The notes beneath the pieces are model-generated. The model worked only from the letters and a program-made list of their open reading frames with translations, was not told where the DNA came from and did no database searches. Positions 5,937 to 51,364 of a stretch of DNA of 64,000 nucleotides are shown here, piece after piece. Source of the DNA: Culicoidibacter larvae (GTDB lineage Bacteria; Bacillota_I; Bacilli_A; Culicoidibacterales; Culicoidibacteraceae); NCBI RefSeq assembly GCF_005771635.1, contig NZ_VBWP01000003.1, forward strand, positions 62,001 to 126,000, in the 5' to 3' direction. Every line of letters starts with the position of its first letter. Position 1 is the stretch's first letter. The translations under genes and the position numbers were made by a program.

Positions 5937-5976
5937 GAAAAAAGGTGGCAGAGGTAAGACCTCCACCACCATCAAG
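5937..5976 (-). terminator. Terminator or attenuator before the polymerase gene
   Basis: On the minus strand GGTGGTGGAGG pairs along its full 11 nt (two wobbles) with CCTCTGCCACC around a 5-nt loop, followed by six T. It lies between the DUF2815 stop and the polymerase ribosome site, so part of the upstream transcription should stop here. Confidence 0.75.
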
Positions 5977-5989
5977 TTTTCTATTCCTT

Positions 5990-6541: not shown

Positions 6542-6546
6542 AATAT

Positions 6547-7683: not shown

Positions 7684-7993
7684 TTCCAAGACCCTCCGCA
7701 TCTTTCAAGATGTCAGCATAATAAGTCTTATCAACAGCACTTAACTTGTCTGCACCATACTTCTGAATGAGTCCTCGCACTTCGGCGGTAAATCCAAGTT
7801 GGCTCTTTTCAGCAAGTACCATACGCACTTTTTCAAGTGGGATATCTGGCTCTTTTACTGGTTCTTGTTCAGTTGCAGCTTTTGCACTTGGAGCAGGACT
7901 TCCTTCTGTCATTACATCGCAAACCGCCTGTATGCTGTCAGCAAGACTTCGCATATCATTGACCACTTCAAGCAGTAACTTTATTTTGCTCAA
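7676..7993 (-). CDS. Small conserved phage protein (DUF2800-associated)
   Basis: Protein of 105 aa. It has an N-terminal helix (SKIKLLLEVVNDMRSLADSIQAV), an Ala/Pro/Glu-rich linker, and a compact C-terminal module (VRMVLAEKSQLGFTAEVRGLI, then YGADKLSAVD) that recurs in proteins beside DUF2800 in Bacillota phages. Similar proteins are sometimes named rRNA biogenesis proteins in databases, which I do not trust. It overlaps both neighbours by a few bases and so belongs to the early operon. Function unknown. Confidence 0.75.
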   Translation of the reverse strand: MSKIKLLLEVVNDMRSLADSIQAVCDVMTEGSPAPSAKAATEQEPVKEPDIPLEKVRMVLAEKSQLGFTAEVRGLIQKYGADKLSAVDKTYYADILKDAEGLGNG

Positions 7994-8186
7994 GGTCAGT
8001 TCCTCCTTTCGTCATTTCACAGATAGATAGTTCCTCGATGCTATCTCCAGGGATCACAATCGTTACACGCTGTTTACTCCCTAAAAGAAAGCGAAGAATT
8101 CGTTCCCTTACGGACACATTACGGTAGGTAACAAGTCCGCCTGTCTGTGGTTTCTTTGAAACACTGATTTTTAGATTGTGTTTCAT
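7968..8186 (-). CDS. Small early phage protein
   Basis: Basic protein of 72 aa beginning MKHNLKISVSKK, with VTYRNVSVRERILRFLLG and a C-terminal IEELSICEM stretch. The ATG at 8186 is chosen because GAGGTG stands 6 nt upstream; the two earlier in-frame starts overlap that site. It is the first gene of the DUF2800-DUF2815 operon. Its leader holds copy 2 of the conserved hairpin element, whose arm matches the ribosome site. No known domain recognised. Confidence 0.65.
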   Translation of the reverse strand: MKHNLKISVSKKPQTGGLVTYRNVSVRERILRFLLGSKQRVTIVIPGDSIEELSICEMTKGGTDLEQNKVTA

Positions 8187-8190: not shown

Positions 8191-8264
8191 ATCACCTCTT
8201 TCCAAAGGGCGATTTATTTCTTGCCCTCTACCTAGTAGCCACGGGAGGTGATAGAATCTGACGG
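8191..8264 (-). promoter_or_regulatory. Conserved hairpin element, copy 2, with anti-Shine-Dalgarno
   Basis: On the minus strand ATCACCTC (8245-8252) is an exact 8-nt complement of the ribosome site GAGGTGAT (8191-8198). Between them lie the conserved GGCTACTAGGTAG loop and an inner hairpin AGGGC/GCCCT (8206-8210 and 8223-8227). The leader could thus hide or expose the ribosome site. Confidence 0.6.
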
Positions 8265-8268
8265 TTTA

Positions 8269-8313
8269 GAAAAAAAGAAAGCCTACCAAAGAGAAAAACT
8301 CCTTGATAGGCAT
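8269..8313 (-). terminator. Terminator after the lysozyme gene
   Basis: On the minus strand GCCTATCAAGGAG pairs with CTTTGGTAGGC and is followed by TTTC then seven T. It ends the late transcript after the lysis genes and separates it from the DUF2800 operon. Confidence 0.75.
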
Positions 8314-28135: not shown

Positions 28136-29371
28136 TTATTCATTGGTTTCCACCAATTCATCATATTTATAACTTAGTCCATCCCTTTGAACACTGACTT
28201 CTTTAGAAGTTCCAACCTGCTCAATGTAGCGTTTAATAATGACATCACAAAACTTCTCATCTAGTTCCACGGTGTAGCAGATGCGTTCTGATTGCTCACA
28301 GGCAATTAGGGTACTACCACTTCCGCCAAATGGGTCAAGCACAATGGTGTTACTCATAGAGGAGTTCAAAATCGGATAGGCGAGCAGAGGGATAGGTTTC
28401 ATCGTAGGATGGTCTCCATTTCTCTTCTGCTTATCAAATTCCCAGATGGTGGTTTCTTTCCTGCCCGTATACCACTGATGCTTGCCTTTCTTTTTCCAGC
28501 CAAACAGCACTGGTTCATGCTGCCATTGATAAGGAGAACGACCCAGCACAAGGGAGTCCTTTTTCCATATACAACAGCCGGACAAATAAAAACCGGCATC
28601 CGAGAAGGCTTTTCTAAAATTAAACCCTTCGGTGTCGGCATGGAATACGTAGATGGAGGCATCGTCTGCCAGAACTTCTTCGATATTGATAAAGGCATCT
28701 AAGAGGAACTGGTAGAAGGCATCATTTGCCATATGGTCATTTTTGATTTTCCCTGCAGCACCTTCATAATTCACATTGTAGGGAGGATCTGTTACGCACA
28801 AGTTTGCCTTCTTTTTATTCATCAGCACATCATAGGTTTCTTTCTTGGTAGAATCACCACAGATAAGCCTGTGTCTGCCAAGCGTCCATATGTCACCAAG
28901 CTTGCTGATGGCAGGCTTTTTTAGTTCTGTCTCCACATCAAAGTCATCATCGTGGATCCCCTCTTTCAGCGTGTCTTTAAATAAGTCATCCAGTTCTTTA
29001 GGGTCAAATCCAGTTAGGGAAACATCAAAATCTACACCTTGTAAATCTGAAATTAAAAGGGCCAATTTATCCTTGTCCCAATCACCGCTGATTTTATTGA
29101 GCGCGATGTTGAGTGCTTTTTCTTTTTCTTCGTCCATTTCAATGATGACACACTCAACTTCTGTGATGCCCATATCCATGAGAACCTTCAGTCTTTGATG
29201 CCCACCAACAACATGGCCGGTCACCTTATTCCAGATAACCGGCTCTACATAACCAAATTGTTCAATGGATCGTTTTAATTTATCGTATTCTGCATCTCCT
29301 GGTTTCAAATCTTTACGAGGATTGTATGTTGCAGGGATGAGGTCTTTTGTGTTCTTCTTTTCAATCAACAT
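28136..29371 (-). CDS. ParB-like/DNA methyltransferase fusion
   Basis: Protein of 411 aa joining an N-terminal ParB/sulfiredoxin-like nuclease domain (about 1-150: IPATYNPRKDLKPGD, GHVVGGHQRLKVLMDMG) to a beta-class DNA methyltransferase. The catalytic DPPYNV motif (about residue 205) precedes the SAM-binding DPFGGSGST (about 350). It probably modifies phage DNA as protection from host restriction. Its start overlaps the phage SAM synthetase by 11 nt, so methyl-donor supply and use are translated together. Confidence 0.93.
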   Translation of the reverse strand: MLIEKKNTKDLIPATYNPRKDLKPGDAEYDKLKRSIEQFGYVEPVIWNKVTGHVVGGHQRLKVLMDMGITEVECVIIEMDEEKEKALNIALNKISGDWDKDKLALLISDLQGVDFDVSLTGFDPKELDDLFKDTLKEGIHDDDFDVETELKKPAISKLGDIWTLGRHRLICGDSTKKETYDVLMNKKKANLCVTDPPYNVNYEGAAGKIKNDHMANDAFYQFLLDAFINIEEVLADDASIYVFHADTEGFNFRKAFSDAGFYLSGCCIWKKDSLVLGRSPYQWQHEPVLFGWKKKGKHQWYTGRKETTIWEFDKQKRNGDHPTMKPIPLLAYPILNSSMSNTIVLDPFGGSGSTLIACEQSERICYTVELDEKFCDVIIKRYIEQVGTSKEVSVQRDGLSYKYDELVETNE

Positions 29372-30524
29372 ATTTATTTACCGCCTCCCTTAGTTCTGTA
29401 TAGCAATCTAGAAATTCCCACGTGCTTAAGCCATATCTGAAATGGCCGTAAGTAGCTGTATCTGCATAAATAACATCCGTCAGCTTTAGCTTTTCGATAA
29501 TGGCTGCAGGTCTTAAATTGAATACATCTAATACAGCACGGCAAAGGATACTTTCTTCCACCGTGCCTGTTCCAAAGGTATCAATCTCAAGAGCAACAGG
29601 ATCTGCTTTTCCAATTGCATAGGAAATCGCTACCTGGCATCGCTTAGCAAAGCCACATCGAACAATATTCTTTGCAATCGCCCTTGCCATGTAGGCACCA
29701 CTACGGTCAACTTTTGTCGGGTCTTTGCCTGAAAACGCACCGCCACCATGAGCAGCTAATCCGCCATAGGTATCAACCATGATTTTTCTTCCCGTAAGAC
29801 CAGTATCAGCTGCTGGTCCTCCTTCAACAAATCGTCCACTAGGATTAATGAGGATCTCAGTCTCATCGTCAAATGGATATTTTTCAAAGACTGGCCACAG
29901 CACCTGAGCAATGACTTCATTTCTTAAAACATCTAAATCTTTATCTGCACTGTGTTGAACGGAAACTACAATGGTCTTAATTCGTTTTGGTTTGTCACCT
30001 TCATATTCCACCGTCACTTGAGCCTTACCATCTGGGCCAATGTCTTTGATTACGCCATTCTTCATCACCTTATCCAGCTTTTCGCAAATGGCATGGGATA
30101 AGACTAAGGGGAGAGGTAGTTTCTCACTAGTTTCATTGGTGGCATAGCCATAAACGGTGCCTTGGTCACCCGCTCCTAACATGGAATACCATGACGTATC
30201 ACCCTCACGAGATTCCAAGGCCCTATCTACACCACCTGCGATATCTTTACTTTGTTGATGGACATAGACAAAGACTAAAAATTTTCTAGGCTTGTAGCCC
30301 ACATCTGTAAGAACACGGCGGACAACACCTCTAATGTCAATTCTCTTTGAGCAGGTAATCTCACCGGCAACAATGATGTGTCCTTTGGTTGCCATCACCT
30401 CGCAAGCAACACGAGAAGATTTATCTTTTCTTAAACATGCATCTAAAAGGCTATCTGAAATAAGGTCACATAGTTTATCGGGATGACCTTTACATACACT
30501 TTCACACGTTCTATATTTATTCAT
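29361..30524 (-). CDS. metK: Phage S-adenosylmethionine synthetase
   Basis: Methionine adenosyltransferase of 387 aa making SAM from methionine and ATP. GHPDKLCDLISD, GAGDQGTVYGYATNE, the segment NPSGRFVEGGPAADTGLTGRK and HGGGAFSGKDPTKVDRS keep the substrate and metal-binding signatures, so it looks active. It is slightly short compared with chromosomal enzymes of about 395-400 aa. It lies between the small terminase and a SAM-dependent DNA methyltransferase that it overlaps, so it is probably phage cargo that feeds DNA methylation. Confidence 0.95.
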   Translation of the reverse strand: MNKYRTCESVCKGHPDKLCDLISDSLLDACLRKDKSSRVACEVMATKGHIIVAGEITCSKRIDIRGVVRRVLTDVGYKPRKFLVFVYVHQQSKDIAGGVDRALESREGDTSWYSMLGAGDQGTVYGYATNETSEKLPLPLVLSHAICEKLDKVMKNGVIKDIGPDGKAQVTVEYEGDKPKRIKTIVVSVQHSADKDLDVLRNEVIAQVLWPVFEKYPFDDETEILINPSGRFVEGGPAADTGLTGRKIMVDTYGGLAAHGGGAFSGKDPTKVDRSGAYMARAIAKNIVRCGFAKRCQVAISYAIGKADPVALEIDTFGTGTVEESILCRAVLDVFNLRPAAIIEKLKLTDVIYADTATYGHFRYGLSTWEFLDCYTELREAVNKYVD

Positions 30525-36960: not shown

Positions 36961-37743
36961 TCACACCTCCATCTCAATCTGCGGATAAATACTATCCGCC
37001 TTTAGCTGTTCATAGATAAAGAGTCTGCCTTTTTGTGTCCACTTGGTATGCACTTTCGTATGCTTTATACCTTTGCTATCTTCGTAAATGTGAGTGTTGG
37101 TTTTGGTATATCCATTGGGAGCATACTTTTGATAAAGAAGCCAAATATCACCTTGCTTAAACTGAATGCCTTTTTCATGGAGGTATTCGTTCATGCGCAT
37201 GGCACTCCAGCCATAATCTTTGGCAATCACAGAAATATTGACTGCATCCCTGCATTTAAGAACCACATCATAGTAAGTAGCCTTGGGTTTCATCTCAGCA
37301 ATTTGTTGCTGACCAATAGCAACGGCCGCCATCAACTCCTTGTTCTTTTCACGCTCTTCTTTTAATGCAGTAAATGCAGCAATGGCCAGGTCAGGATTTG
37401 CGATTAAATCATCCGTAGCATAGAGTCCGTGTTTACGAATAGCAGGGAGTACTTCGTTTGTCACCCATCGCTTAAATTTTTTAGCATTTGGCATCTTGCT
37501 TGAGAGGATGAGACTGTACAGACCAGATTCGTTAATAGCAGTCATCGTTTGATTTCTTCCGATGGCGTCACGAATCGTTACGTCATCCTTGTCCTCTTCA
37601 TCAACATGATCAATTAAAGCTTTGCGAGTATTTGCATAACCAAGAATGCTTGCTACATCCTTTCCTACAAAATAAGGTTGACCACCAATCGTTGTAGTAC
37701 GTACAGAGCCGAACTCTGCTTTTTTGTAAACTTGTAATTCCAT
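36961..37743 (-). CDS. Phage antirepressor (BRO-N plus KilAC)
   Basis: Protein of 260 aa. The N-terminal BRO domain (FVGKDVASILGYANTRKAL, INESGLYSLILSSK, RWVTNEVLPAIRKHGLY) is followed by a KilAC/ANT domain (SVIAKDYGWSAMRMNEYL). It should relieve repression during induction. Its leader carries copy 3 of the conserved hairpin, and its ribosome site AAGGAGGTAA can pair with that element. It lies just after the sigma-like gene. Confidence 0.93.
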   Translation of the reverse strand: MELQVYKKAEFGSVRTTTIGGQPYFVGKDVASILGYANTRKALIDHVDEEDKDDVTIRDAIGRNQTMTAINESGLYSLILSSKMPNAKKFKRWVTNEVLPAIRKHGLYATDDLIANPDLAIAAFTALKEEREKNKELMAAVAIGQQQIAEMKPKATYYDVVLKCRDAVNISVIAKDYGWSAMRMNEYLHEKGIQFKQGDIWLLYQKYAPNGYTKTNTHIYEDSKGIKHTKVHTKWTQKGRLFIYEQLKADSIYPQIEMEV

Positions 37744-37750: not shown

Positions 37751-37822
37751 ACCTCCTTATAATTTTTGGAGGTCTTGACCTCCTACCTAGTAGCCTTGGG
37801 AGAAGGTCAAATCTGACGGTTT
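37751..37822 (-). promoter_or_regulatory. Conserved hairpin element, copy 3 (four-segment leader)
   Basis: On the minus strand four segments occur in order: GACCTTCT (37801-37808), AGGAGGTC (37777-37784), GACCTCC (37768-37774) and the ribosome site AAGGAGGT (37751-37758). Segments 1-2 and 3-4, or 2-3 and 1-4, can pair. Segment 1 begins in the stop codon of the sigma-like gene, so upstream translation could select the fold. Confidence 0.6.
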
Positions 37823-38349
37823 TTATATTCTTGTTCTAATTTCTTTGTTGCCCGCTTTAATTTCTGAGTAATGTTGTTTTCATTTACTCCGATGGAACTG
37901 GCATATTCTCGAATCGACATACCGTCAATGCGTACTGCAATGAACATATCTGCCCAATCCTGCTTTTTGCCAAGAGCGGTGCGTATCCATGAGCAGATAG
38001 ATTCGTACTCATTTTGGAGACTCCGTTCTATCTCCTGAGAGTTGTCAGCGAAAGTATCCATGACATCTATTTCAACTTCATCATCTTTTCGATAAGGTGT
38101 CTTGGGATTACCAAGATGCCTATGGTAGCGACGCCAATGGTTATATTCCTTGTTGTTCATGAGGTCGAACATTTCTTGTAGAGTCTCGCAGCGTTTCACC
38201 TCCGCTTTCTTTTCAGGCTTTGCCTCTGCAAGACGTTGCTCATAGTCGATATCAAGCATGACGCTGTAATCTCCGTCTGGAATTTCAATTGTGGTGTAGT
38301 TCTTGTGACCGTTTTTGATGTTGTCTTCATATAAAACTCGTATTTTCAT
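37807..38349 (-). CDS. Phage sigma-70-like regulator
   Basis: Protein of 180 aa. The N-terminal part is phage-specific (IRVLYEDNIKNGHKNYTTIEI); the C-terminal part looks like sigma region 4 (WADMFIAVRIDGMSIREYASSI, then NNITQKLKRATKKLEQEY). The ATG at 38349 has AAGGAA upstream. That region lies in an 11-bp hairpin reaching the start codon, so initiation is probably controlled. It is the first gene of the early operon. Confidence 0.8.
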   Translation of the reverse strand: MKIRVLYEDNIKNGHKNYTTIEIPDGDYSVMLDIDYEQRLAEAKPEKKAEVKRCETLQEMFDLMNNKEYNHWRRYHRHLGNPKTPYRKDDEVEIDVMDTFADNSQEIERSLQNEYESICSWIRTALGKKQDWADMFIAVRIDGMSIREYASSIGVNENNITQKLKRATKKLEQEYKNRQI

Positions 38350-38393
38350 TTTGCATTCCTTTCCGTCCCAGTAATGGGTAGCGGAATGCAAAA
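38349..38393 (-). promoter_or_regulatory. Start-site hairpin of the sigma-like gene
   Basis: An 11-bp perfect inverted repeat (38349-38359 and 38383-38393) encloses a CCCA/TGGG inner stem. On the minus strand the second arm holds the GGAA ribosome site and runs to the start codon, so folding would block initiation. Confidence 0.65.
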
Positions 38394-38453
38394 GAGCCTG
38401 CGGATAAGATGACCACAAACTTCGCTTGTCCTAAAAAAGAGCGCACGAAATTA

Positions 38454-38522
38454 CGGTGGGTGCATCTTCATTCCAAACACAGTCTCTATCACTGTGTTCT
38501 GAACTCTCTATGCATCCCGCCG
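38454..38522 (-). ncRNA. Structured leader, two-stem RNA candidate
   Basis: A 69-nt block. The outer CGGTGGGTGCAT and ATGCATCCCGCCG pair over 12 bp (one bulge, one wobble); an 11/12-nt internal loop follows, then an inner ACACAGT/ACTGTGT stem with a 7-nt loop. It lies in the leader of the sigma-like gene. No U-tract follows, so it is not a simple terminator. I could not match it to a known riboswitch class. Confidence 0.5.
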
Positions 38523-38554
38523 TCCTAATGCGCATCTCGGACTTTGAGACTGGT

Positions 38555-38581
38555 TTAATAGAAGTTTTCAGCTTCTATTAA
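38555..38581. promoter_or_regulatory. Perfect 10-bp inverted repeat, operator candidate
   Basis: TTAATAGAAG and CTTCTATTAA are separated by 7 nt, upstream of the early operon. A second short palindrome, CGCAGAACTGCG, lies at 38609-38620. With no repressor gene of standard type nearby, these are candidate sites for the phage or operon regulator. The rest of the 394-nt gap 38350-38743 holds the hairpins described and a terminator. Confidence 0.5.
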
Positions 38582-38639
38582 CATCATAATTTGAAACAAG
38601 ATTTACTTCGCAGAACTGCGAGTTCCGGTTTTTGGGCGT

Positions 38640-38681
38640 AAAAAAAAAGGCTTTACAACCATTATTGGTCATAAAGCCTTG
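38640..38681 (-). terminator. Terminator of the restriction-modification operon
   Basis: On the minus strand AAGGCTTTA/TAAAGCCTT with an inner ACCA/TGGT stem is followed by nine T. It closes the nine-gene operon after the ImmA/IrrE-like gene and insulates the early phage genes. Confidence 0.85.
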
Positions 38682-40671: not shown

Positions 40672-43581
40672 TTAATAATATTGCTCGATGTAGCTATAAG
40701 CTTTATCGAAAACTTCTTTGTCTTTAATCTTGTATTTAATCCAGATAACACTACGAAGTGCCTTTTTCACTTCATTTTTTCCGGTAGTTGTTCTTTGCCA
40801 TCCATCGAATCGTACAATCTTTACAATGTCATCAATATCAGCAACAATGCGTTCAACAATGATGGGTGTTTTGTCGTTCTTAGCACCTTTAAAGAGTTCT
40901 GTTAGTGCTGCTTTCCCACGATCAATTTCTTCTTCCGGGACAACTTCCTTTTCTGCTTGAGCAGCTTCTTTTGCAAGTTCAAGTAGGAGCTTCAAGAACT
41001 CAATACTATTAATTAACCCTTGTTCGTGGCGTTCACGAAGCTCTTCGAGCTTCTCTCCCAGCTTAATAAACTTTGGATCGTTAGAATGTTCGCGAATTTT
41101 GGCAACTAAGTCTATTTCTACCTTCATAGTTGTCTTTTTAACATCTTTCTGCTTACGAATAAATTCGTCAATTAGATCCGCATCAAGCGTTAAAATATCC
41201 ATATCATCATGAACCCTGCCAACTTCGATATTAGAGTGAACTAATTCCATTGTTTTGGCACCAAGAGCAGCCCAAACGAGAGCACCGCGATTATCCGTGG
41301 GTTTCACTGACTCGTAGACTTTTGTTAGCCATACATAGTCAAACTTGTACTTATCAAGAAATGGATCAGGGGACAGAGCATCCCATGCTCTATTTAGAAC
41401 ACGATAATCTGCAGCAAATGCATCTTTATCTTTATTTGTTGGAATACACTCCTGAGCTGCAAGTAAACCTTCCCAACCTACTACGGTACGGTCAACGCCC
41501 ATAAAGTAACTTAGGCATTTTCTGAGAAGTGCAGGAACCTGCTTCTTGACTTCTTCAATATTTGTGATAACTTTTTTCATGCTAGCTTCATCAAAGTCCA
41601 ACGCCTTTGCAACATTATCAAAAATACCAATGTAGTCTACAATTAATCCATGGGTTTTACCTTCATCAAAAGTACGGTTTGTACGGCAGATGGCTTGCAG
41701 AAGGTTATGGTCCTTCATTGGCTTATCTAAATACATTGCTTGAAGAATTGGAGCGTCAAAACCCGTTAATAGCTTTGATGTAACAATAACTAACTTAAGA
41801 GGGTTATTCTTATCACGGAACTGATCAAGGACTCTTGCTTCTTCATCACGGCTGCGACGAAATTTTCTATATCGATCTTCCTTATCGTTATTGGTATCCA
41901 TTACTATCGTTGTTGCTTCATGAGGGAGTAGCTTATCTAGCTCTTCCTTATACTTAAGACAGCACTCACGGTCGTATACAACGATCTGTCCTTTATACCC
42001 GTTAGGCTCTATTTTTTCTTTATAATGTTTTACAATGTGTTCGCAAACCTTGCGTATACGTTTTGGATCATACATGATGGCTTTCATATTTACACGTTTT
42101 GAAAGCTCAGCACGATCTGCATCTGAGAGCGTCTCAGTTAAGGCATCAAATTCTGTATCTATTTTATCCTTATCAACATGAAGCTCGACTGGAACTGGCT
42201 CAAAGTTCAAGGGTAGAGTTGCATTGTCTCTGATGGAATCCGAGAAAGTATATCGACTCAAATATCCGCTCTTATCTTCCGTTGCACCAAATGTACGGAA
42301 AGTATTCTTATCAATACGATTAATTGGAGTACCGGTAAGTCCAAAGAAGAAAGCATTTGGAAGTGCTGCACGCATCCTTTCACCGAGGTCACCTTCTTGA
42401 GTTCTATGTGCTTCATCAACCATAATGATTATGTTATCTCTAAGATTAAGAACATCTTCGACATCACCAAATCGGAAAATAGTCGTTATTGCAATTTTAC
42501 GAATATCTTGCTTAAAAAAGTTTTCAACTTCTTCCTTAGTCGCAAGTGATACTAGGTTTGGAATATCCGAAGCATTAAATGTTGCAGTTATCTGAGTTTC
42601 AAGATCAAGTCGATCATCAACTATTACCACAGTAGGATTCTTAAGTTCGGGGATCATGCGAATTTTTTGTGCTGCAAATACCATTAGCAACGATTTACCA
42701 GAACCCTGAAAGTGCCAGATAAGACCTTGCTTTGGATAGCCCGCAATAACACGTTGTACAATAAGGTTAGCACCTTCATACTGCTGGTAACGGCAAATTA
42801 TTTTGTATTTAACATGTTTCTTATCTGTAGCAAAGAGAGTGAAAAACTGAAAAATATCCATAACCTTCTCAGGAGTAATCATATCAGCTATGCTAACTTT
42901 AACATCAGCGAGGCTACCCTCTGACTTATGGTTAGGAGTATGCCATGGGCCCCACATATTAACTGGCATGCCAACCGAACCATAGCGATAGCATCTACCC
43001 TCAGTAGCAAAATTAAATACATTAGTTACAAACATCTGCGGAATACTCTTTTCATACGATGAAATATCACTTGCAGCGTCTAACCAGGTTATAGCATTGC
43101 GCACCGGGGTCTTTAACTCTCCGATTGAAATTGGGAAACCATTAACCAGCAAAACAATATCAAGTCTCTTTCCACCTTCGGCCTGAGGATAAATCCATTG
43201 ATTAGTAACGACATATTCATTAAGTACTAAATCTTCTTTTTTCATTGTGCCAAAAAAACGGATCGGTATCATTCGGCCATTTTTGCCAAAAGGATATGAA
43301 TTTTCTTCAAAAATCATTCTTTGAAAAAGTTCATTTTGAGTTATTAGGTTATGATGCTGCACTGAAAGTATAATTGCACGTAATTTATAAATGACTTCAT
43401 CAGCACGAGATGGTTCTTCCGCTATTTCAGGATTCAAACGAATTAGCGCTTCTTTAACCATCGGTTCCACCATCACATCCGAAAAGTCCCGTGGTAAATC
43501 ATCAGCGGAGATAAAATTCCACCCGTTTTTGGTTAGTGTTGAGATCACCATTTTTTCAATTGTATTGTCTTCGTTAAACAT
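40672..43581 (-). CDS. hsdR: Type I restriction subunit R
   Basis: Translocase-nuclease of 969 aa. The N-terminal nuclease has GKRLDIVLLVNGFPISIGELK (D...ExK intact). The SF2 motor has Walker A HFQGSGKSLLMVFA (about residue 300), the DEAH box MVDEAHRTQEGDLG (about 388), FFGLTGTPI and late motifs TGFDAPILQAMYLD and LLQAICRTNR. It cuts unmodified DNA after translocation, together with HsdM and HsdS. It is the only R subunit for the two methylases of the locus. Confidence 0.96.
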   Translation of the reverse strand: MFNEDNTIEKMVISTLTKNGWNFISADDLPRDFSDVMVEPMVKEALIRLNPEIAEEPSRADEVIYKLRAIILSVQHHNLITQNELFQRMIFEENSYPFGKNGRMIPIRFFGTMKKEDLVLNEYVVTNQWIYPQAEGGKRLDIVLLVNGFPISIGELKTPVRNAITWLDAASDISSYEKSIPQMFVTNVFNFATEGRCYRYGSVGMPVNMWGPWHTPNHKSEGSLADVKVSIADMITPEKVMDIFQFFTLFATDKKHVKYKIICRYQQYEGANLIVQRVIAGYPKQGLIWHFQGSGKSLLMVFAAQKIRMIPELKNPTVVIVDDRLDLETQITATFNASDIPNLVSLATKEEVENFFKQDIRKIAITTIFRFGDVEDVLNLRDNIIIMVDEAHRTQEGDLGERMRAALPNAFFFGLTGTPINRIDKNTFRTFGATEDKSGYLSRYTFSDSIRDNATLPLNFEPVPVELHVDKDKIDTEFDALTETLSDADRAELSKRVNMKAIMYDPKRIRKVCEHIVKHYKEKIEPNGYKGQIVVYDRECCLKYKEELDKLLPHEATTIVMDTNNDKEDRYRKFRRSRDEEARVLDQFRDKNNPLKLVIVTSKLLTGFDAPILQAMYLDKPMKDHNLLQAICRTNRTFDEGKTHGLIVDYIGIFDNVAKALDFDEASMKKVITNIEEVKKQVPALLRKCLSYFMGVDRTVVGWEGLLAAQECIPTNKDKDAFAADYRVLNRAWDALSPDPFLDKYKFDYVWLTKVYESVKPTDNRGALVWAALGAKTMELVHSNIEVGRVHDDMDILTLDADLIDEFIRKQKDVKKTTMKVEIDLVAKIREHSNDPKFIKLGEKLEELRERHEQGLINSIEFLKLLLELAKEAAQAEKEVVPEEEIDRGKAALTELFKGAKNDKTPIIVERIVADIDDIVKIVRFDGWQRTTTGKNEVKKALRSVIWIKYKIKDKEVFDKAYSYIEQYY

Positions 43582-43605
43582 AAATATTCCCTCCTATCAT
43601 GAAGT

Positions 43606-44262
43606 TTAATTTCCATCTGTGACAATCATATTGTCATAATTGCGAATTAAGTTGCTCAAGAGTCTAAAATCTCGTGCCTCTGTATCACTTGCAAATTTTG
43701 ATTTATCGCTCTGTCGAACAAAGGACGCAAACCGTATCTGCTCTTTGTATGGAACATCAGGAATTTCCATTTCTGCAAACTGCGCTAATTGTATAGCAGG
43801 GTAGGAGACATCCCTTATTAAACTCTTAGTTCCAACTGTCATAAAAAAGGTTCTTATATATTCTGTAGTACTTGTCATATCTATAGGCTGTATACATGCC
43901 AAATGTGAAACTACATATGCCGCCTTTTTCAGCGAATAAATGTGCCCTGATAAGCATGACATCCCACTTTTTGCGACCAAGACCGTTCCAGAATTATGCA
44001 GCTTCAACTTTTTTTCTTTAATTGTTTTTTCATCTACAAGATTACATTCTTGCTCAGAAAGTCTTAACAACTTTAAGTCCTCTAAATTTCCAGCTTTTAT
44101 AAAAGGAGTACCTTCTTCAGAAAACTCATCATCATGAGGTGAACTTTGACCTGCTGTTATATTTGCTATTTCACCTAACCTTGTCTTCTCATACCCTTCG
44201 AACTGCTCCATAAATTGAGATTTGAAATTAACCAATGAACTTTTTAAAGGAGTTTTTAACAT
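43606..44262 (-). CDS. hsdS: Half HsdS cassette (central helix, TRD2 and tail only)
   Basis: 218 aa corresponding to the second half of a specificity subunit. It starts at the conserved central helix (FKSQFMEQFEGYEKTRLGEIA), contains one target recognition domain and ends after the shared QSDKSKF segment. There is no first TRD. The ATG overlaps the 3' end of the tyrosine recombinase by 35 nt and has no good ribosome site, so it is probably a silent cassette. Its edges are 20-22 bp direct repeats (44201-44220 and 43692-43713) shared with the hsdS at 45279-46418. Confidence 0.85.
   Translation of the reverse strand: MLKTPLKSSLVNFKSQFMEQFEGYEKTRLGEIANITAGQSSPHDDEFSEEGTPFIKAGNLEDLKLLRLSEQECNLVDEKTIKEKKLKLHNSGTVLVAKSGMSCLSGHIYSLKKAAYVVSHLACIQPIDMTSTTEYIRTFFMTVGTKSLIRDVSYPAIQLAQFAEMEIPDVPYKEQIRFASFVRQSDKSKFASDTEARDFRLLSNLIRNYDNMIVTDGN
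43692..43713 (-). repeat. TRD2-end repeat, copy 1
   Basis: A 22-bp sequence identical to 45347-45368; 19 bp of it also occur at 46457-46475. It encodes the QSDKSKF segment at the end of each HsdS TRD2. All three copies point the same way. Confidence 0.8.
44201..44220 (-). repeat. TRD2-start repeat, copy 1
   Basis: A 20-bp sequence identical to 45880-45899. A diverged copy around 46942-46957 shares 16 bp with the flank here. It encodes the SQFMEQF central helix and abuts the recombinase 3' end, a likely crossover site. Confidence 0.8.
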
Positions 44263-45208
44263 TTTCCTGATTCACCATTGCATACTGAAGAGTAGTATCT
44301 ATACTTTGATGGCCAAGAAGCTGTTGAACCTGCTCAATCGGCATTCCTTTGTCTATTGCCAGTGTTGCCAGCGTTCTGCGAAACTTATGTGGGTGCACCT
44401 TAGAAAAGTTTAGTTCTCGTCCTATTTTTCTTAAACGAATCTCAACTCCGCTAATCTGCAATCGATCATAAGGCTTTAATAATGATACAAATAGTGCTTC
44501 ATTATTATCTTCACGCTCTGATAGATATCTCTGAAGATGTATTTTAGTTCTAGCATCAAAGTATACTTTTCGTTGCCTGTTACCTTTTCCTATCACAACA
44601 CACTCTCTATTTTCAAAGTCCACATCCCTGATATTAAGCTTGACTAATTCTCCTACACGAATGCCTGTTGAAGCTAGAAGGTCAATCATAGAAAGATCAC
44701 GCATATTATCACAGTGATCACGCATCAGCTCCATTGACTCATCCGAATACGTTTCTTTCACAGTTTTACCAGTCTTAACTTTTCGAATCCTTCTAACCGG
44801 ACTCTTTACAATGTAATCCTCATCCTCTAGCCAAGCAAAGAAGGTAGAAAAAATTCTCCTTACATTATCCAACGTAACTTTACTAACATTACCTCGTTGC
44901 TGATATGAATCAAGGTAATCCCGTAAATCTTCCGTTGTTATATGACATTCCGATTTGTTAATATTCTCCAGTAAATTCCGAATCGTTGATTCATAATAAC
45001 GTAAAGTTTTGCTTGAACACCCTTCCACACGTTTAGCTGAAATAAATAACGGAAGAAGATTATTCTGTTTATCCTCTTTTTCTAATTGTTTATCACCAAT
45101 CACTTCTGTTAGACGTTTTTTTAATACTTTAGATAACATAGCCATTTGGACATCATCTAAAATTGTTGCAAGATCTTGTTGCACTTCATTAATAATTTGA
45201 TTAAGCAT
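44228..45208 (-). CDS. Tyrosine recombinase within the hsdS locus
   Basis: XerC/CreX-like integrase of 326 aa. A SAM-like N-terminal DNA-binding domain (SKTLRYYESTIRNLLENI) precedes the catalytic domain with ASTGIRVGELVKL (Arg), HKFRRTLATLAIDKG (HxxR), LLGHQSIDTT and the Tyr of LQYA; all catalytic residues are present. The ATG at 45208 follows GGAGG. It is placed between complete and half HsdS genes, so DNA shuffling of specificity is its likely job. The hsdS genes are in direct rather than inverted orientation, which would favour deletion and cassette exchange. Confidence 0.92.
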   Translation of the reverse strand: MLNQIINEVQQDLATILDDVQMAMLSKVLKKRLTEVIGDKQLEKEDKQNNLLPLFISAKRVEGCSSKTLRYYESTIRNLLENINKSECHITTEDLRDYLDSYQQRGNVSKVTLDNVRRIFSTFFAWLEDEDYIVKSPVRRIRKVKTGKTVKETYSDESMELMRDHCDNMRDLSMIDLLASTGIRVGELVKLNIRDVDFENRECVVIGKGNRQRKVYFDARTKIHLQRYLSEREDNNEALFVSLLKPYDRLQISGVEIRLRKIGRELNFSKVHPHKFRRTLATLAIDKGMPIEQVQQLLGHQSIDTTLQYAMVNQENVKNSFKKFIG

Positions 45209-45264
45209 GAAATTTCCTCCTTTGTTTGTTCCTCCGTGAGGTTGTCTCACGAGCCGGAGGAAAC
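45209..45264 (-). promoter_or_regulatory. Leader hairpin of the tyrosine recombinase
   Basis: On the minus strand TTCCTC and CGTGAG pair with CTCACG and GAGGAA with a one-sided bulge (45229-45263). The first arm TTTCCTCC also matches exactly the ribosome site GGAGGAAA of the recombinase, so two folds with opposite effects on translation are possible. Confidence 0.5.
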
Positions 45265-45278
45265 TTCATGCCCCATAA

Positions 45279-46418
45279 TTATCCTAAATTTTCTTCTATA
45301 ATCCGTTTATAGGTGGCATTTAACTCTGATAGAGTTTGCTCGAGTTCAAATTTTGATTTATCGCTCTGATTAGCAAAGGCTTCAAATTGTTTTTGATGCT
45401 CTAATGGTGGTATCGGAATCAATATATTATCAATATGTTCATTCTTAAGATTATTGATATTTGATCCCGTTGCTAATCGCATAATTGTATTTCTGTACTC
45501 ATCCGTTTCAAAATACGTAGCTATATATTTAGGTATAAGCATCCCTGTAGAGCGCAGAAGCTTGCAAAATGTACCAAATGTCTCTCCTTCTTCATTTCTT
45601 GAGCATAAAGCAGCTTTTCCTACATGCTCTAGGCTTCCACTAGAGCCACACATCAAGATATCTTCATTACATATCAGTTGTTCTTTTGACACCTTATCTT
45701 TAGATACGAACTGGACTTCCTCATGATTTACTTTTCCTGATAAAATATTATTTGCTCTTAACAATGTAATGCTTAGGGAGTTAAGGTTATTGTGTAGGTC
45801 AGCAGGCTTATACGATACGCCACGTATTTGGTTAATGAAGTTTCCCAGTCTTTTCCTTTCATATGGATTTCCATTTACAAACTGCTCCATAAATTGAGAC
45901 TTTACGAGCTCATCAGTTTTATTGAGCAACTCTTTATACCTTAGCAATGTTCTATTTATTGACCATAACATGTCAGCTAACTTCTTTTGTTTATCTAAAT
46001 CAGGGAGCTGAAACTTCAGTTCTTTAAGATCTCTCCAGTTAATTGTTGGTGAGAGTGACCCAACAGATATCTTTATTGCAGCGTCCAAAAAATAATCTGA
46101 GCTAATGAAGAGTGGGAAGAAATTCTTGTCAATTATTTCTTCATTTGGCCGCAAGACCATTCCATGAGCAGAGAAGATTCCATCGAACGGAGCAATTGCT
46201 ACTTTCTTTTGATATGCTCGCCTTTTACCAAATAATACGTCTCCTTTTTTCATTACAAGTTTTTCACCCTTAGGAGCAATATCAGAGCCCCATCTTGAAA
46301 CCATAAGGTTCTGAGAATCCAAGTGTTCTAAGCCTATATAAGTATATTTATCTTCTTCAACAGGCTTCTTTTTTTCTGTGATATTGATAACAATATGGTC
46401 AAATCTATATTCCGACAT
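45279..46418 (-). CDS. hsdS: Type I specificity subunit (complete)
   Basis: Specificity subunit of 379 aa with two TRDs. TRD1 (about 1-150) has IGLEHLDSQN, KKGDVLFGKRRAYQKKV and a late SVGSLSPTINWRDL. The central helix ends LVKSQFMEQF. TRD2 (about 195-340) has TGSNINNLKNEHI. A second helix ends the protein. It follows the previous stop directly with AGGAGGT upstream. The TRD2 edges are direct repeats shared with the half cassette. Confidence 0.93.
   Translation of the reverse strand: MSEYRFDHIVINITEKKKPVEEDKYTYIGLEHLDSQNLMVSRWGSDIAPKGEKLVMKKGDVLFGKRRAYQKKVAIAPFDGIFSAHGMVLRPNEEIIDKNFFPLFISSDYFLDAAIKISVGSLSPTINWRDLKELKFQLPDLDKQKKLADMLWSINRTLLRYKELLNKTDELVKSQFMEQFVNGNPYERKRLGNFINQIRGVSYKPADLHNNLNSLSITLLRANNILSGKVNHEEVQFVSKDKVSKEQLICNEDILMCGSSGSLEHVGKAALCSRNEEGETFGTFCKLLRSTGMLIPKYIATYFETDEYRNTIMRLATGSNINNLKNEHIDNILIPIPPLEHQKQFEAFANQSDKSKFELEQTLSELNATYKRIIEENLG
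45347..45368 (-). repeat. TRD2-end repeat, copy 2
   Basis: Identical over 22 bp to 43692-43713. It marks the 3' edge of the TRD2 of the hsdS at 45279-46418. Confidence 0.8.
45880..45899 (-). repeat. TRD2-start repeat, copy 2
   Basis: Identical over 20 bp to 44201-44220. Recombination between the two would replace the TRD2 of this hsdS by the half cassette and excise about 1.68 kb containing the recombinase gene. Confidence 0.8.
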
Positions 46419-47465
46419 TTATGCTGCACCTCCTAACATCCAGCTAAAATAGTCATATTTTGATTTATCGCTCTGTTGAGCAAAGGCAATGAACTGTTCC
46501 TGTTGATGCTTATCTGCATTTGGCATCAATAGCCCATGCAAATTATCTTTATTGATGGAAAGAACGGTACTTCCTTGTCCCATTGAAGCTATTTTATCTT
46601 CCATAACTCTAAATGCATACAGAAGGAACTCATTGTATTCCTGAGATTTTTTGCTTCTGATAGCAGCTAATCCACGCCCTATACAACACTCCTTGTCTGT
46701 AAGATTTACGGTTCCTACAGGTGCTCGTACAGACATGAGCACATCGCCGGAGTTAGCTATTCGAGTTGGTGCACTGCAGTACATTCGAGTCTTCACATAC
46801 TTTTCCGAGAAATCCGCGCTTCCTTGATAAAAAGGTAATCCTTGAGCATCAAAATTATAGGAATCAGATGTTGGGGATTGGCCCATTAATATGACAGCCA
46901 TAGTGTCGAGTCGAACTCTATCGGTGTTCATGAACATCTCGATAAATTGAGATTTGACCAGCTCATCGGTCTTTTGAATTAGCTTCTGATAGGTCTTTTT
47001 TGTACTATCTATCGACCATAATAGGCTAGCTAACTTGCTTTGTTCTTTTAAATCAGGTAACTCAAACCTAAAGTTCTTTAGATTCTCCCATTTAACACGG
47101 GGTGATAAAGAACCAGCGGACTTACCTATAGCAAAATCAAATAATGCATCATTTTGAATAATAAACGGTAAAAGTTCAGGTAGAATTTTATCTGGAAGAG
47201 CTTGAATTACCGTTATGTCACCAGAACAAATGCCATCAAAAGGAGCAACTACAGCCTTCTTTAAATAAGCACGTCTACGTCCAAAAAGAACATCTCCTTT
47301 TCGGAAGATCTTAGTAAAAGAATTTTCCTTATTTTCTTCCCAGGCTGTTAGAGTAATTTCTTCTGAAATCAAGTGCTCTAAGCCCACAATTGGATACCTG
47401 ACTTTATTTTCTTTACTAGTTTCCTTTCGCTCTTTAGCAACTTCTCCTAAGAATACTTCACTCAT
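46419..47465 (-). CDS. hsdS: Type I specificity subunit (complete, proximal to hsdM)
   Basis: Specificity subunit of 348 aa. TRD1 is of the same family as in the next gene (IVGLEHLISEEITLTAWEE, GDVLFGRRRAYLKKAVVAPF). The central helix is LVKSQFIEMF. TRD2 is of another type (MGQSPTSDSYNFDAQGLPFYQ, MSVRAPVGTVNL). The ATG at 47465 with AAAGGGG at 9 nt is preferred over the ATG 9 nt upstream. It overlaps the HsdM stop and is probably the main expressed specificity gene. Confidence 0.92.
   Translation of the reverse strand: MSEVFLGEVAKERKETSKENKVRYPIVGLEHLISEEITLTAWEENKENSFTKIFRKGDVLFGRRRAYLKKAVVAPFDGICSGDITVIQALPDKILPELLPFIIQNDALFDFAIGKSAGSLSPRVKWENLKNFRFELPDLKEQSKLASLLWSIDSTKKTYQKLIQKTDELVKSQFIEMFMNTDRVRLDTMAVILMGQSPTSDSYNFDAQGLPFYQGSADFSEKYVKTRMYCSAPTRIANSGDVLMSVRAPVGTVNLTDKECCIGRGLAAIRSKKSQEYNEFLLYAFRVMEDKIASMGQGSTVLSINKDNLHGLLMPNADKHQQEQFIAFAQQSDKSKYDYFSWMLGGAA
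46457..46475 (-). repeat. TRD2-end repeat, copy 3
   Basis: Shares 19 bp with the copies at 43692 and 45347, at the same codons (QSDKSK). Confidence 0.75.
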
Positions 47466-48954
47466 TATTTTCATCCCCTTTCCCGATCATGTCGCTTAAT
47501 TTCATATAGCGAAGTTTCATAATTTCCGAGTATGTTCTCCAACTTTCATAACGCTCTTGAAGAGAACGTTCGTCAGTTTCTGCCCCAGGCATGGTCTTTT
47601 TAACATAGAGTGGGATACTGAGCGAGAAATTGTTATCTTCAATATCACGAATTGAGACAACGCGTGCAAAATCATTATCTGTTTCATATTTGTTGTATGC
47701 TGATGCTATCTTTTCAATATGTTTATCTTCCAGATAGCTCTGTGCATTTTTTCTCTCAACCTCATCTACTGCATTTATAAATAAAACCTGGCCACGACGG
47801 TTTGCAGGCTTATTTTTACGACATATAATTATGCAAGCCTCCATTGGTGAATTATAAAACAGGTTGGGACCTAAACCTATCACACATTCAAGCATATCGC
47901 TTCTAACTAATTTTTCTCGCATACTACTTTCCTCATTACGAAACAATACGCCATGTGGGAATAATATCGCACTACGTCCAGTGTCTTCTTTCAAACTCTT
48001 CAGAATGTGTTGTAAAAAAGCATAATCTGCTCGACCTTGAGGAGGAACACCTAGGAAGTTACGTCCATATTTATCGCTAGCAAAGGCTTCTCTGTCCCAC
48101 TGACTAATAGAGTAGGGAGGATTGGCAAGAACCATGTCAAATTCTTTCAACTTTCCTTTCTCAATAAAAGCCGGTGATTTTAACGTATCTCCATTTACAA
48201 TTTCAAAGTCCTTCACACCATGCAAAAATAAGTTCATTTTGCCAATCGATGAAGTTAAAGCATTTATTTCCTGCCCATAAACAGCCACATTACGCCATTC
48301 TTTTTTTTGTTTTTGCAAATAGGCTATCGCGGAGATTAGCATACCTGCACTACCGCACGTTGGATCATAAATTGATTCTCCTGACTGAGGTCTCAAGATT
48401 TCAGTCATAAGATGAACTACGGTACGATTTGTATAGAATTCTTGAGCGGTATGGCCACTGTCGTCGGCAAACTTCTTGATTAGGTACTCGTATCCCTGTC
48501 CTAGTTCGTCCTCCGGACAATTTTCAATAGACAATGTTCTACTGCTGAAATGTTCTATTAATTCTTTTAGAAGTCTGTCTGACAAACGATTCTTATTTGT
48601 CCAAGCAGCATCTCCAAAAATTCCTTGTAGTTTATCAGCGTTTGCTTTTTCGATCTTACGAAATGCACTGACTATAGCAACACCTACATTCTCAGAAACT
48701 TCACGAACATCATTCCAATGAGCACCTTTGGGTACCTGAAACCGATGATTTTCTTCAAACTCTAAGGCTTCCTCATCGCCAAATTGCTCTAGAATTTTTT
48801 GACACTCTTCGTCATAAACATCGCTGATTCTTTTAAAGAAAAGCAGCGGGAAAATGTATTGTTTATAAGCTCCTGCATCTATACTAGAACGAAGAAGAAC
48901 AGCTGAATCCCATAAATATGTTTGCAATTCATCTATTGTAATGCACTTACTCAT
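47458..48954 (-). CDS. hsdM: Type I methylase subunit M
   Basis: N6-adenine methylase of 498 aa. It has an N-terminal helical domain (FPLLFFKRISDVYDEECQ), SAM motif I DPTCGSAGMLISA and catalytic motif IV ANPPYSISQWD; it looks active. It partners the adjacent HsdS and HsdR. It is related to, but clearly different from, the methylase part of the upstream fusion gene, with which it overlaps by 8 nt. Confidence 0.95.
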   Translation of the reverse strand: MSKCITIDELQTYLWDSAVLLRSSIDAGAYKQYIFPLLFFKRISDVYDEECQKILEQFGDEEALEFEENHRFQVPKGAHWNDVREVSENVGVAIVSAFRKIEKANADKLQGIFGDAAWTNKNRLSDRLLKELIEHFSSRTLSIENCPEDELGQGYEYLIKKFADDSGHTAQEFYTNRTVVHLMTEILRPQSGESIYDPTCGSAGMLISAIAYLQKQKKEWRNVAVYGQEINALTSSIGKMNLFLHGVKDFEIVNGDTLKSPAFIEKGKLKEFDMVLANPPYSISQWDREAFASDKYGRNFLGVPPQGRADYAFLQHILKSLKEDTGRSAILFPHGVLFRNEESSMREKLVRSDMLECVIGLGPNLFYNSPMEACIIICRKNKPANRRGQVLFINAVDEVERKNAQSYLEDKHIEKIASAYNKYETDNDFARVVSIRDIEDNNFSLSIPLYVKKTMPGAETDERSLQERYESWRTYSEIMKLRYMKLSDMIGKGDENNE

Positions 48955-51364
48955 TTACATATCCTCCTTCAAGCAATAATTCCATCATTGTTTTTTCAGC
49001 CTCAATCATTTTTTCAAGTGCGTCAAAATACTGTTTTCTTACTTCAGCTGGAGGAGTAATTTCTTGTTCTTTTCTTTCGATATAATTATTGATCGCTAGA
49101 CTATAACCTTTATCTTTGACTTCGGAAATCGTGACCACTTTTACTTTTTCAATAACATCTTTATAATCGCCATACAAATTGTAGACCTTGTCTACGTCAT
49201 TGTCGGTCATTATATTTTGTGCTCGTTGTGCTGTGAATATATCAGAACCATCGATCATACATATACGACCTTTATGATCATTTTTTTTGTTATTGTTTAG
49301 AAAAAGAATACAAGCGGATACTCCAGTTGAATAGAACACGCCGCTTACCAGTGTAATAATGCATTCTAGCTTGTCTGATTCAATCAGTTGTTTGCGAATT
49401 TCTGCTTCTCTACCCCCACGGAATAGTACACCTTGTGGTAAAACAACAGCACAACGGCCGGTTTTCTCGTCCATCGACTTCACCATGTGTTGCAGCCATG
49501 CAAAATCAGCATTGGAGTCAGTTGGGGTTCCCCACATATTTCGACCATATATATCTGTACTAAATTGTTGTGAACCCCATTTTTTCAACGAAAATGGAGG
49601 ATTCGCTACAACGCAATTGAAAGTTTTTAATTTACCTTTCTCAAGAAAATTAGGAGAACGTAATGTATCACCTTGTGTAATCTTAAAATCCTTTGCGCCA
49701 TGCAAAAATAAATTCATTCTAGCAATTGCAGATGTAGATAGATTATTCTCCTGGCCATATATTCGGCCATACGTCATTTTATCGTTTTTCATGTAGCGTA
49801 TGGCTTCTATTAGCATTCCTCCAGTCCCACAAGCTGGATCATAGACTGTTTCACCAATCTTTGGATCCAGAAGCATAATGAGAAGTTTGACAATGGAGCG
49901 TGGAGTATAAAATTCACCAGCATTCTTTTTTGATAAATCAGCAAATTTCTTAATCAGAAATTCATAACTATCTCCCATAACATCAGCCGAGTAATTCGCA
50001 TTACCAACTTTTATTTTTGACATATGTTCTATTAAATTTTTTAGTCTCTCGTCTGAGAGTTTAGTTTTGTCAGTCCAATTAGCATCATCAAAGCTACTAA
50101 ATACACCACTTAAAGTATCGGGGTTAGCACGCTCAATACCATTCATTGCTTTGACGATTGCAACACCAACATTTTCACTTGCTTCCCTGACATTTTGCCA
50201 GTGGCATCCCACAGGAATATCAAAACTGTGGTTCTCGGGAAATCTAGCATACTCCTCATCTCCACCAGAGCGCTCAAGTGCATCTTGAGTTTCTTCGTCG
50301 TAAACATCACTAATTCTCTTAAAAAAGAGGATTGGAGTCACATAACTTTTATACTCATCTTGGTTTATTGGTCCTCGCAGAATATTACAAGCCTCAAATA
50401 GATGATTAAATAGTTGCTGGCTTGTCGTCTCTTCATTTGTAGGAATCGAATCATTTAGTTCTTTCTCTGCTATTTCTACAGAGGACTGCATCATAGTTTT
50501 TCTATTCCCAGTCTGCACTTTGGTCTCTGCATTTCTTTCGATGCCAATACTACCGACTGAATTGATTTTTTCCATCTTTGATGGATAATTATTTTCAAAC
50601 TCTACCAAAATCTTAAGTAGGCGCTCGTCAAGGAAGGTCAGAGCATGTTTTCTAATATCTGTAGGTATTCCATAGTAAGCTCCTGCGATACCACCTGTAA
50701 TAGCTGCAATGGTATCGCTATCACCACCAATTGATATGGCGTTACGAATTGCATCTTCAAAATTTTTCGACTCGAAGAAAGCTTCCAAGGCTTGAGGAAC
50801 AGTTCCCTGACAGCTCTCATTAAACTCATAATTATCACGTATTTCATCAAGGGAAAAATTCAACGGGTAATAATTCTTTGTTATATAGTCGCGAATCTCT
50901 AGCAAATTCTTTCCAGAACGCGCCAGGAAGATAGCAACAGCTGTTGCCTCTGCACCTTTTATCCCCTCAGGATGATTGTGTGTTACTTCTGTCACAGCTT
51001 TTGATAGTTGTTTCACTTCTTCCAGGGTATTTGCTACGAATCCACATGCACTGACACGCATCGCTGCCCCATTACCATAGCTGTTATATGGTTTTGGATT
51101 GTCAGAATATATCCATTCTCTGAAATGCCCACCATATCCACAGTTTGGGTAGTGTTGTCCGATATTCTGCATATACTTTACAGCATTTTCGGACAGGTCA
51201 CTATAATCCGACTTGCTTTCTAACAGCGCTTTAGCTATAGCTAAAGTCATTATGGAATCATCGGTAACACTACATTTATACGTTAATAAATCAAATTGCT
51301 TACTCTTGTTATTATTCCATTCAAAACGGGAACCCACGATATCCCCGATAATAGCTCCTAACAT
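48947..51364 (-). CDS. ADP-ribosylglycohydrolase fused to HsdM methylase
   Basis: Protein of 805 aa from one uninterrupted frame. Residues 1 to about 265 are a DraG/ARH-type ADP-ribosylglycohydrolase: GAIIGDIVGS (3-12), TDDS (34-37), YGNGAAMRVS (96-105) and GGDSDT (213-218), so the metal-binding residues are kept. After a linker (about 266-310), residues to the end form a complete type I HsdM with DPACGTGGMLIEA (about 511) and ANPPFSLKKW (about 588). Both halves appear active. Two adjacent ATG codons near residue 290 could allow a separate methylase product, but the ribosome site there is weak. The fusion suggests ADP-ribose removal linked to DNA modification; substrate unknown. Confidence 0.9.
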   Translation of the reverse strand: MLGAIIGDIVGSRFEWNNNKSKQFDLLTYKCSVTDDSIMTLAIAKALLESKSDYSDLSENAVKYMQNIGQHYPNCGYGGHFREWIYSDNPKPYNSYGNGAAMRVSACGFVANTLEEVKQLSKAVTEVTHNHPEGIKGAEATAVAIFLARSGKNLLEIRDYITKNYYPLNFSLDEIRDNYEFNESCQGTVPQALEAFFESKNFEDAIRNAISIGGDSDTIAAITGGIAGAYYGIPTDIRKHALTFLDERLLKILVEFENNYPSKMEKINSVGSIGIERNAETKVQTGNRKTMMQSSVEIAEKELNDSIPTNEETTSQQLFNHLFEACNILRGPINQDEYKSYVTPILFFKRISDVYDEETQDALERSGGDEEYARFPENHSFDIPVGCHWQNVREASENVGVAIVKAMNGIERANPDTLSGVFSSFDDANWTDKTKLSDERLKNLIEHMSKIKVGNANYSADVMGDSYEFLIKKFADLSKKNAGEFYTPRSIVKLLIMLLDPKIGETVYDPACGTGGMLIEAIRYMKNDKMTYGRIYGQENNLSTSAIARMNLFLHGAKDFKITQGDTLRSPNFLEKGKLKTFNCVVANPPFSLKKWGSQQFSTDIYGRNMWGTPTDSNADFAWLQHMVKSMDEKTGRCAVVLPQGVLFRGGREAEIRKQLIESDKLECIITLVSGVFYSTGVSACILFLNNNKKNDHKGRICMIDGSDIFTAQRAQNIMTDNDVDKVYNLYGDYKDVIEKVKVVTISEVKDKGYSLAINNYIERKEQEITPPAEVRKQYFDALEKMIEAEKTMMELLLEGGYVNE

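Follow-up and report, generated by a model that had tools for sequence, protein, structure and literature searches.

What does the folded leader do that lies between a sigma-like gene and an antirepressor gene in a prophage of Culicoidibacter larvae, and how does the second gene come to be expressed? We analysed a stretch of 64,000 nt around this locus (NZ_VBWP01000003.1, assembly GCF_005771635.1, positions 62,001 to 126,000; hereafter the window). A first-pass annotation had described the leader as the third copy of a four-segment switch, in which segments 1:2 and 3:4 or, alternatively, 2:3 and 1:4 can pair, and had suggested that ribosomes ending at the stop codon of the sigma-like gene set the fold and couple antirepressor synthesis. 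All of these pairings are present on the minus strand at 37751-37823 (Table 1), and at copy 3 segment 1 does begin within the TGA of the sigma-like gene (37809-37807). At minimum free energy, 37740-37823 folds as 1:2 plus 3:4, at -29.2 kcal/mol (z -4.48, with 0 of 200 shuffles as good); when 2:3 is imposed on the leader, it adopts 2:3 plus 1:4 at -23.3 kcal/mol. The four-segment label fits copies 2 and 3 but not copy 1, which has two segments because its segment 2 is the Shine-Dalgarno sequence itself. We consider it probable that the three sites are promoters of one regulon under a phage sigma-like factor, and that their arms hide the Shine-Dalgarno sequence only in read-through transcripts. 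The promoter part of this reading, as judged from sequence, is well supported; the guarding part, that is, the silencing of read-through, is moderately supported.

Table 1. Features of the window that bear on the element or lie near it.
Feature	Position	Strand	Details
SHOCT_2 gene under copy 1	3702..3920	minus	between PolA and serine recombinases
Copy 1	3926..3974	minus	box ATCAGATT 3961-3968; GGCTA 3942-3946; Shine-Dalgarno 3929-3935 = segment 2
Replication genes under copy 2	3976..8186	minus	KHNLKISVS protein (PHROG 7234), 105-aa protein, DUF2800 exonuclease, ssDNA-binding protein, DNA polymerase A
Copy 2	8221..8267	minus	box GTCAGATT 8255-8262; GGCTA 8236-8240
Intrinsic terminator after lysin gene	8269..8312	minus	directly upstream of copy 2; -20.3 kcal/mol, z -7.8, then T-run
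S-adenosylmethionine synthetase gene and DNA methylase-like gene	28136..30524	minus	
Antirepressor gene	36961..37743	minus	Bro-N + KilAC/ANT; under copy 3
Copy 3, segment 4	37751..37758	minus	AAGGAGGT, Shine-Dalgarno of the antirepressor gene
Copy 3, segment 3	37768..37774	minus	GACCTCC; pairs with segment 2 or Shine-Dalgarno
Copy 3 (model positions 1-48)	37776..37823	minus	between sigma-like gene and antirepressor gene
Copy 3, segment 2	37777..37784	minus	AGGAGGTC; holds the predicted transcription start (ECF-like geometry)
Copy 3, second box core	37791..37795	minus	GGCTA, -10-like
Copy 3, segment 1	37799..37808	minus	GACCTTCTCC; inside inter-box spacer; 5' arm pairing with segment 2 or 4
Copy 3, first box	37810..37817	minus	GTCAGATT, -35-like
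Sigma-like gene	37807..38349	minus	180-aa product; directly upstream of copy 3
Inverted repeat at sigma-like gene	38344..38394	minus	TTTTGCATTCC/GGAATGCAAAA
Hairpin-rich stretch	38400..38680	minus	about 250 nt, apparently noncoding
Type I restriction-modification island	40672..51364	minus	
Integrase-like recombinase gene	44228..45250		within the island
805-aa frame	48947..51364	minus	

Exactly three matches to the core CAGATT-N14-GGCTACTAGGTAG lie in the window, all on the minus strand (3934-3966, 8228-8260 and 37783-37815), and none appeared in 100 shuffles of the window with up to three mismatches allowed. No further copies were found elsewhere in the whole genome, and in a position-weight scan of the window for weaker sites the next best score was 11, compared with 36-38 for the copies; none was accepted. 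Three types of site can be distinguished: (a) before the antirepressor gene, as in copy 3; (b) before the small PHROG 7234 gene that opens the replication genes, as in copy 2; and (c) before the SHOCT_2 gene, as in copy 1. The sigma-like gene has its own Shine-Dalgarno sequence within an inverted repeat that reaches the start codon, and a homologue of the gene (L220) is also preceded by a similar Shine-Dalgarno hairpin. The hairpin-rich stretch is flanked by a terminator (38680-38647) and by the sigma-like gene; no consensus sigma-70 promoter was found there, near the sigma-like gene or near copy 3. The prophage also has a complete S-adenosylmethionine synthetase gene adjoining a DNA methylase-like gene. 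In the Type I island, HsdS-like genes share 53-nt repeats (43691, 45346, 46453) and possibly form, together with the recombinase, a phase-variable specificity gene set. The 805-aa frame looks like a fusion of an ADP-ribosylglycohydrolase-like start and an HsdM-like part.

Near-identical copies of the element turned up in many Bacillota when viral contigs and 84,980 species genomes were scanned with sequence patterns, and two sequence-only models reached divergent phages. A looser pattern, GTCAGATT-N{8,34}-CTACTAG, was abandoned when chance hits swamped the scan; one true divergent member, L076, came from it. The family now comprises about 66 distinct aligned homologues, from Bacillota phages, and its conserved part consists of two boxes, GTCAGATT-N14-GGCTAnnAgGTAG, with the 14-nt spacing fixed in nearly all homologues. 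Exactly three copies occur in 8 of 10 named motif-bearing phages, the exceptions being a record that is a 22-kb fragment and the 64-kb PV036457, which has the protein but one copy; most motif-bearing bacterial genomes have three copies per prophage. These copies stand at the same three places across phages, and the distance from motif start to start codon is constant by site type, at about 52-55 nt for (c), 77-84 nt for (a) and 78-83 nt for (b). At (a) and (c) the downstream gene varies between phages while the motif is kept, and the motif is therefore not tied to one gene. Outside phages the element is rare in the searched data, with one partial plasmid match in Lactococcus raffinolactis. A literature search, mainly of freely readable papers, found no published description of the motif.

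Some homologous loci depart from the usual layout. One (L297 in G753, 1501-1630) holds a tandem pair of elements 81 bp apart, with boxes GTCAGATT and GTCCTTTT, which perhaps serve two factors. At two others (L283 in G397 and L305 in G593) an element with box CTCAATTT or CTCAACTT stands right behind a terminator and before a gene for MKEIENKKTSKISN...; in G397 the same contig holds a GTCAGATT copy 1.7 kb away from this CTCAATTT/CTCAACTT-type element.

The strongest conservation falls outside the paired arms, in the two boxes at fixed spacing, and the boxes behave differently from the rest of the element when the sites of one phage are compared. Box 1 (model positions 7-14) takes the forms GTCAGATT (with ATCAGATT mostly at site c), GTCCTTTT, GTCCAATN, GTCCGATT, and CTCAACTT or CTCAAGTT. 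It differs among phages and is common to all sites of one phage: within-phage identity is 0.955, compared with 0.710 when sites are permuted among phages (z 9.9), and 0.958 compared with 0.673 (z 6.5) with one phage per box form. Two phages, G614 and G753, are exceptions and have two box types each. Positions 34-38, the five nucleotides after GGCTA, are also concordant within phages (0.711 versus 0.549, z 5.9), and the GGCTA core itself is invariant in the sets tested. By contrast, neither the spacer (positions 15-26; 0.521 versus 0.531) nor the downstream arm (positions 42-48; 0.460 versus 0.468) shows within-phage concordance. That the sites of one phage agree at the boxes alone indicates that the boxes are read by a trans-acting factor.

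The product of the sigma-like gene is the candidate for this factor. Its C-terminal half has the fold of sigma region 4 (Z ~9 over residues 97-180, from AlphaFold2 and structural comparison); Sigma70_r4_2 matches at E 3e-5, just below the Pfam cut-off, and TIGR02937 (sigma70-ECF) matches weakly, below the family cut-off. The N-terminal half carries an NxPEYNxWxxxxRH motif. Predicted alone (pTM 0.48), this domain gave no convincing match, and sigma-2 was absent among the matches that VIA-align listed for it. The family corresponds to PHROG 11138, for which no function is listed. Across 14 proteins, distance between box 1 sequences follows distance between recognition helices (r 0.84; 0.82 as a partial r that controls for the remainder of the C-terminal part; p<1/5000) and does not follow that remainder (partial -0.22). 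Two divergent proteins illustrate this: L256 (helix ENNITQKLKRA) and L076 (helix ENNLTRKLQRA) are 45% and 34% identical outside the helix region but have near-identical helices, and the box is still GTCAGATT. L296, 54% identical, has a different helix, RDTVYKRLQRA, and the box GTCCAATA. Among named phages, the motif is found in 10 of 10 with the sigma-like gene and in 0 of 8 without it (Fisher 2.3e-5), where the eight were hand-picked for related exonuclease or antirepressor genes, are phylogenetically non-independent and include one with a 12.6-bit partial motif match that was scored as absent. TPDSL_ph1, one of the eight, matches weakly in the region-4 part alone (E 1e-4). We propose that the sigma-like protein recognises the first box.

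The surroundings of the element likewise point to a promoter. In the homologues, eight copy-2-type sites have a terminator of -17 to -30 kcal/mol 8-40 nt upstream, as do five type (c) sites in another clade, and four copy-2-type sites that lack a terminator follow closely on the sigma-like gene instead; in this tabulation, as in that of accessibility below, a few sites were mistyped by the automatic rule (L309 as b, some a), which leaves the conclusions unchanged. Genes behind a terminator must have a promoter of their own, for which the motif is the conserved candidate; a promoter is thus indicated rather than a leader. The arrangement GTCAGA-N17-GCTA, two boxes at rigid spacing upstream of several operons, fits ECF-type spacing. 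ECF sigma factors need a rigid spacer, with an optimum of 17 bp for SigH, and their domain 4 reads the -35 element (PMC6411747). On the SigH scaffold, GTCAGA at -34 to -29 puts GCTA at -11 to -8 across a 17-bp spacer, with a predicted start at position 41.

Pairing of the hairpin arms, at least for 1:2, also finds support among the homologues. The change of the outer pair from C-G to G-C relative to copy 1 (CACC/GGTG versus GACC/GGTC), put forward earlier as a compensatory change supporting the stem, is borne out and belongs to a covariation among homologues, found in the 1:2 pairs when the 66 sequences were checked. Across these the eight pairs form in 80.7% of cells, compared with 74.5% for shuffled and 46-61% for slid arms, and 57 double-sided changes occur where shuffles predict 29.3; 0 of 500 shuffles reached either value. 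The outer pair alone is CG in 13, TA in 12, GC in 10 and AT in 2. In the 15 copy-3-type copies the 1:2 pairs form in 89.2% versus 81.1%, and at these sites (a) a phage's own arms pair at -12.2 kcal/mol compared with -9.6 kcal/mol for swapped arms (p<5e-5), so that the stem stands on covariation and the swap test alike. Own-versus-swapped 1:2 pairing was not significant at (b) or (c) sites, nor was 1:4. Copy-2-type sites (L216, L298, L257 and others) have a conserved GCTCTCGGAAAGGAG/AGAGG block that forms a second pairing with the Shine-Dalgarno sequence (3:4). A pseudoknot between GUCA of box 1 and the loop was dropped on inspection, copy 1 having AUCA.

In the full leader the Shine-Dalgarno sequence is hidden in both folds, by 3:4 in one and by 1:4 in the other. 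Only when segment 1 is removed does 2:3 form while segment 4 pairs with neither of segments 1 and 3. As the second fold (2:3 plus 1:4) also covers the Shine-Dalgarno sequence, exposure would come about by losing segment 1, not by refolding. At 34 of the 35 sites of type (a) or (b), RNA started at about position 39 is predicted to have a 5'-terminal 2:3 hairpin, or at least folds better than shuffles. By site type, the predicted probability that the Shine-Dalgarno sequence is unpaired is 0.18/0.26/0.13 in read-through RNA, compared with 0.54/0.52/0.68 for a start at 39 and 0.34/0.40/0.71 for a start at 42. With segment 1 shuffled it stays nearly as low (0.22/0.25/0.22), and pyrimidine richness alone therefore does much of the work.

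These observations are consistent with the following scheme. Box 1, GTCAGATT, would serve as the -35 element, recognised by the region-4 helix of the phage-encoded sigma-like protein, and box 2, GGCTAnnAgG, as the -10 element. Transcription would start near motif position 41, at about 37783, 8228 and 3934, giving a local transcript that is devoid of segment 1. At copies 2 and 3, the first bases of this transcript would fold into the 2:3 hairpin, with the Shine-Dalgarno sequence left free; at copy 1, it would begin at the Shine-Dalgarno sequence. A read-through transcript, on the other hand, would have segment 1, which would pair either with segment 2, so that segment 3 covers the Shine-Dalgarno sequence, or with the Shine-Dalgarno sequence itself, and would thus be poorly translated. 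Only in the presence of the sigma-like protein would the antirepressor be made, together with the products of the replication genes and of the gene that precedes the recombinases. We infer promoter activity, the start site, direct binding and translational silencing alike.

Could the leader instead act as the ribosome-set switch of the first-pass annotation, with ribosomes that end at the sigma-like stop covering segment 1 and coupling antirepressor translation? The overlap of stop and segment 1 seen in the window recurs in the GTCAGATT clade, but across homologues the place of the stop codon ranges from motif position -2 to +65, and the same element stands at copies 1 and 2, where no gene overlaps it. 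A switch would also gain little from two full-leader folds that both hide the Shine-Dalgarno sequence, would leave the strongest conservation in boxes outside the arms, which behave like the recognition site of a trans-acting factor, and would have to operate in a leader hardly transcribed without its own promoter where several copies sit behind the terminators. We regard this mechanism as highly improbable, although ribosome coupling may add to regulation at copy 3. Some of the same evidence bears on an RNA leader that binds a small ligand or a phage protein, possibly the sigma-like one, with the boxes as single-stranded RNA elements and the arms switching the Shine-Dalgarno sequence. The conserved bases do flank a real hairpin and occupy its loop, and a trans-acting RNA-binder would likewise yield concordance within phages. 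Against this, box 1 follows the DNA-recognition helix of sigma region 4, copies come directly after intrinsic terminators, the full-length leader hides the Shine-Dalgarno sequence in either fold, and no Rfam family corresponds (Rfam 15 scans of the window and 11 divergent loci gave nothing at the gathering cut-off); such a leader appears distinctly unlikely.

If the boxes are read as DNA, the reader need not be the sigma-like protein: concordance requires merely some trans-acting DNA-binder, and the element might be an operator of another phage repressor or activator. The helix-specific covariation with the sigma-like protein, together with motif co-occurrence, leaves very little room for this possibility. 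The element might also be a promoter and nothing else, its arms a by-product of a pyrimidine-rich spacer that faces a purine-rich Shine-Dalgarno sequence. Three results agree with this explanation, namely that boxes are concordant within phages and arms are not, that a shuffled segment 1 hides the Shine-Dalgarno sequence almost equally, and that swap tests are not significant at two of three site types. However, 1:2 covariation exceeds both shuffles and slides, the swap test is significant at copy-3-type sites, and a promoter alone gives segment 3 no reason to complement the Shine-Dalgarno sequence at those sites; we therefore hold a bare promoter to be unlikely.

The reading of the three sites as promoters guarded against read-through predicts one factor and three start sites per phage. 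If true, the replication genes, the antirepressor and the gene before the recombinases answer to the sigma-like factor alone and not to read-through, and the pairs of -35 box and recognition helix constitute a natural code, a series of at least five specificities. PHROG 11138 would also gain a function and target sites. More broadly, we see an even chance that a widespread family of Bacillota phages runs a minimal three-promoter regulon through its sigma-like protein, with each promoter inside its own translational insulator and with box and helix co-evolved through at least five specificities. The reading further suggests that a T4-like promoter-in-hairpin device arose independently as a regulon-wide design in temperate Bacillota phages, including gut phages under Ca. 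Heliusvirales.

Several known systems resemble parts of this arrangement. The DUF2815 RNA (RF03084) is a structured leader named for a gene of this replication cassette; it was rejected as the same element, scoring 16.1 bits against a cut-off of 41.2, with no instance above the cut-off in 245 genomes. In ECF (group IV) sigma factors such as SigH (PMC6411747), region 4 reads the -35 box at rigid spacing, as sequence leads us to expect here; the present protein differs in having no recognisable region 2, and the boxes are GTCAGATT/GTCCTTTT/CTCAACTT with a GGCTA second box. The split sigma SigO-RsoA (YvrI-YvrHa) of Bacillus subtilis (PMC8103513) offers a precedent for a region 4 protein without evident region 2 that directs promoter use, as presumed for the phage protein, whose N-terminal domain is set apart by the NxPEYNxWxxxxRH motif. 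Sigma genes are also borne by other phages of the same phylum (PMC9429907), but those are sporulation-type, unlike the PHROG 11138 family. A precedent for the arms is found in T4, where genes e, soc, 49 and I-TevI have the Shine-Dalgarno sequence or start codon in a helix, and late transcripts of gene e are without the 5' arm (PMC3014915). In T4, as proposed here, long upstream transcripts hide the Shine-Dalgarno sequence in a hairpin, and for gene e local transcripts devoid of the 5' arm are translated; in the present phages this function is a predicted one. T4 is nevertheless an unrelated phage with gp55/gp33 as sigma, and the late promoter of gene e lies beside the hairpin, whereas the three copies described here, each at its fixed place, have the 5' arm in the spacer between -35 and -10, and two of them an extra 2:3 hairpin.
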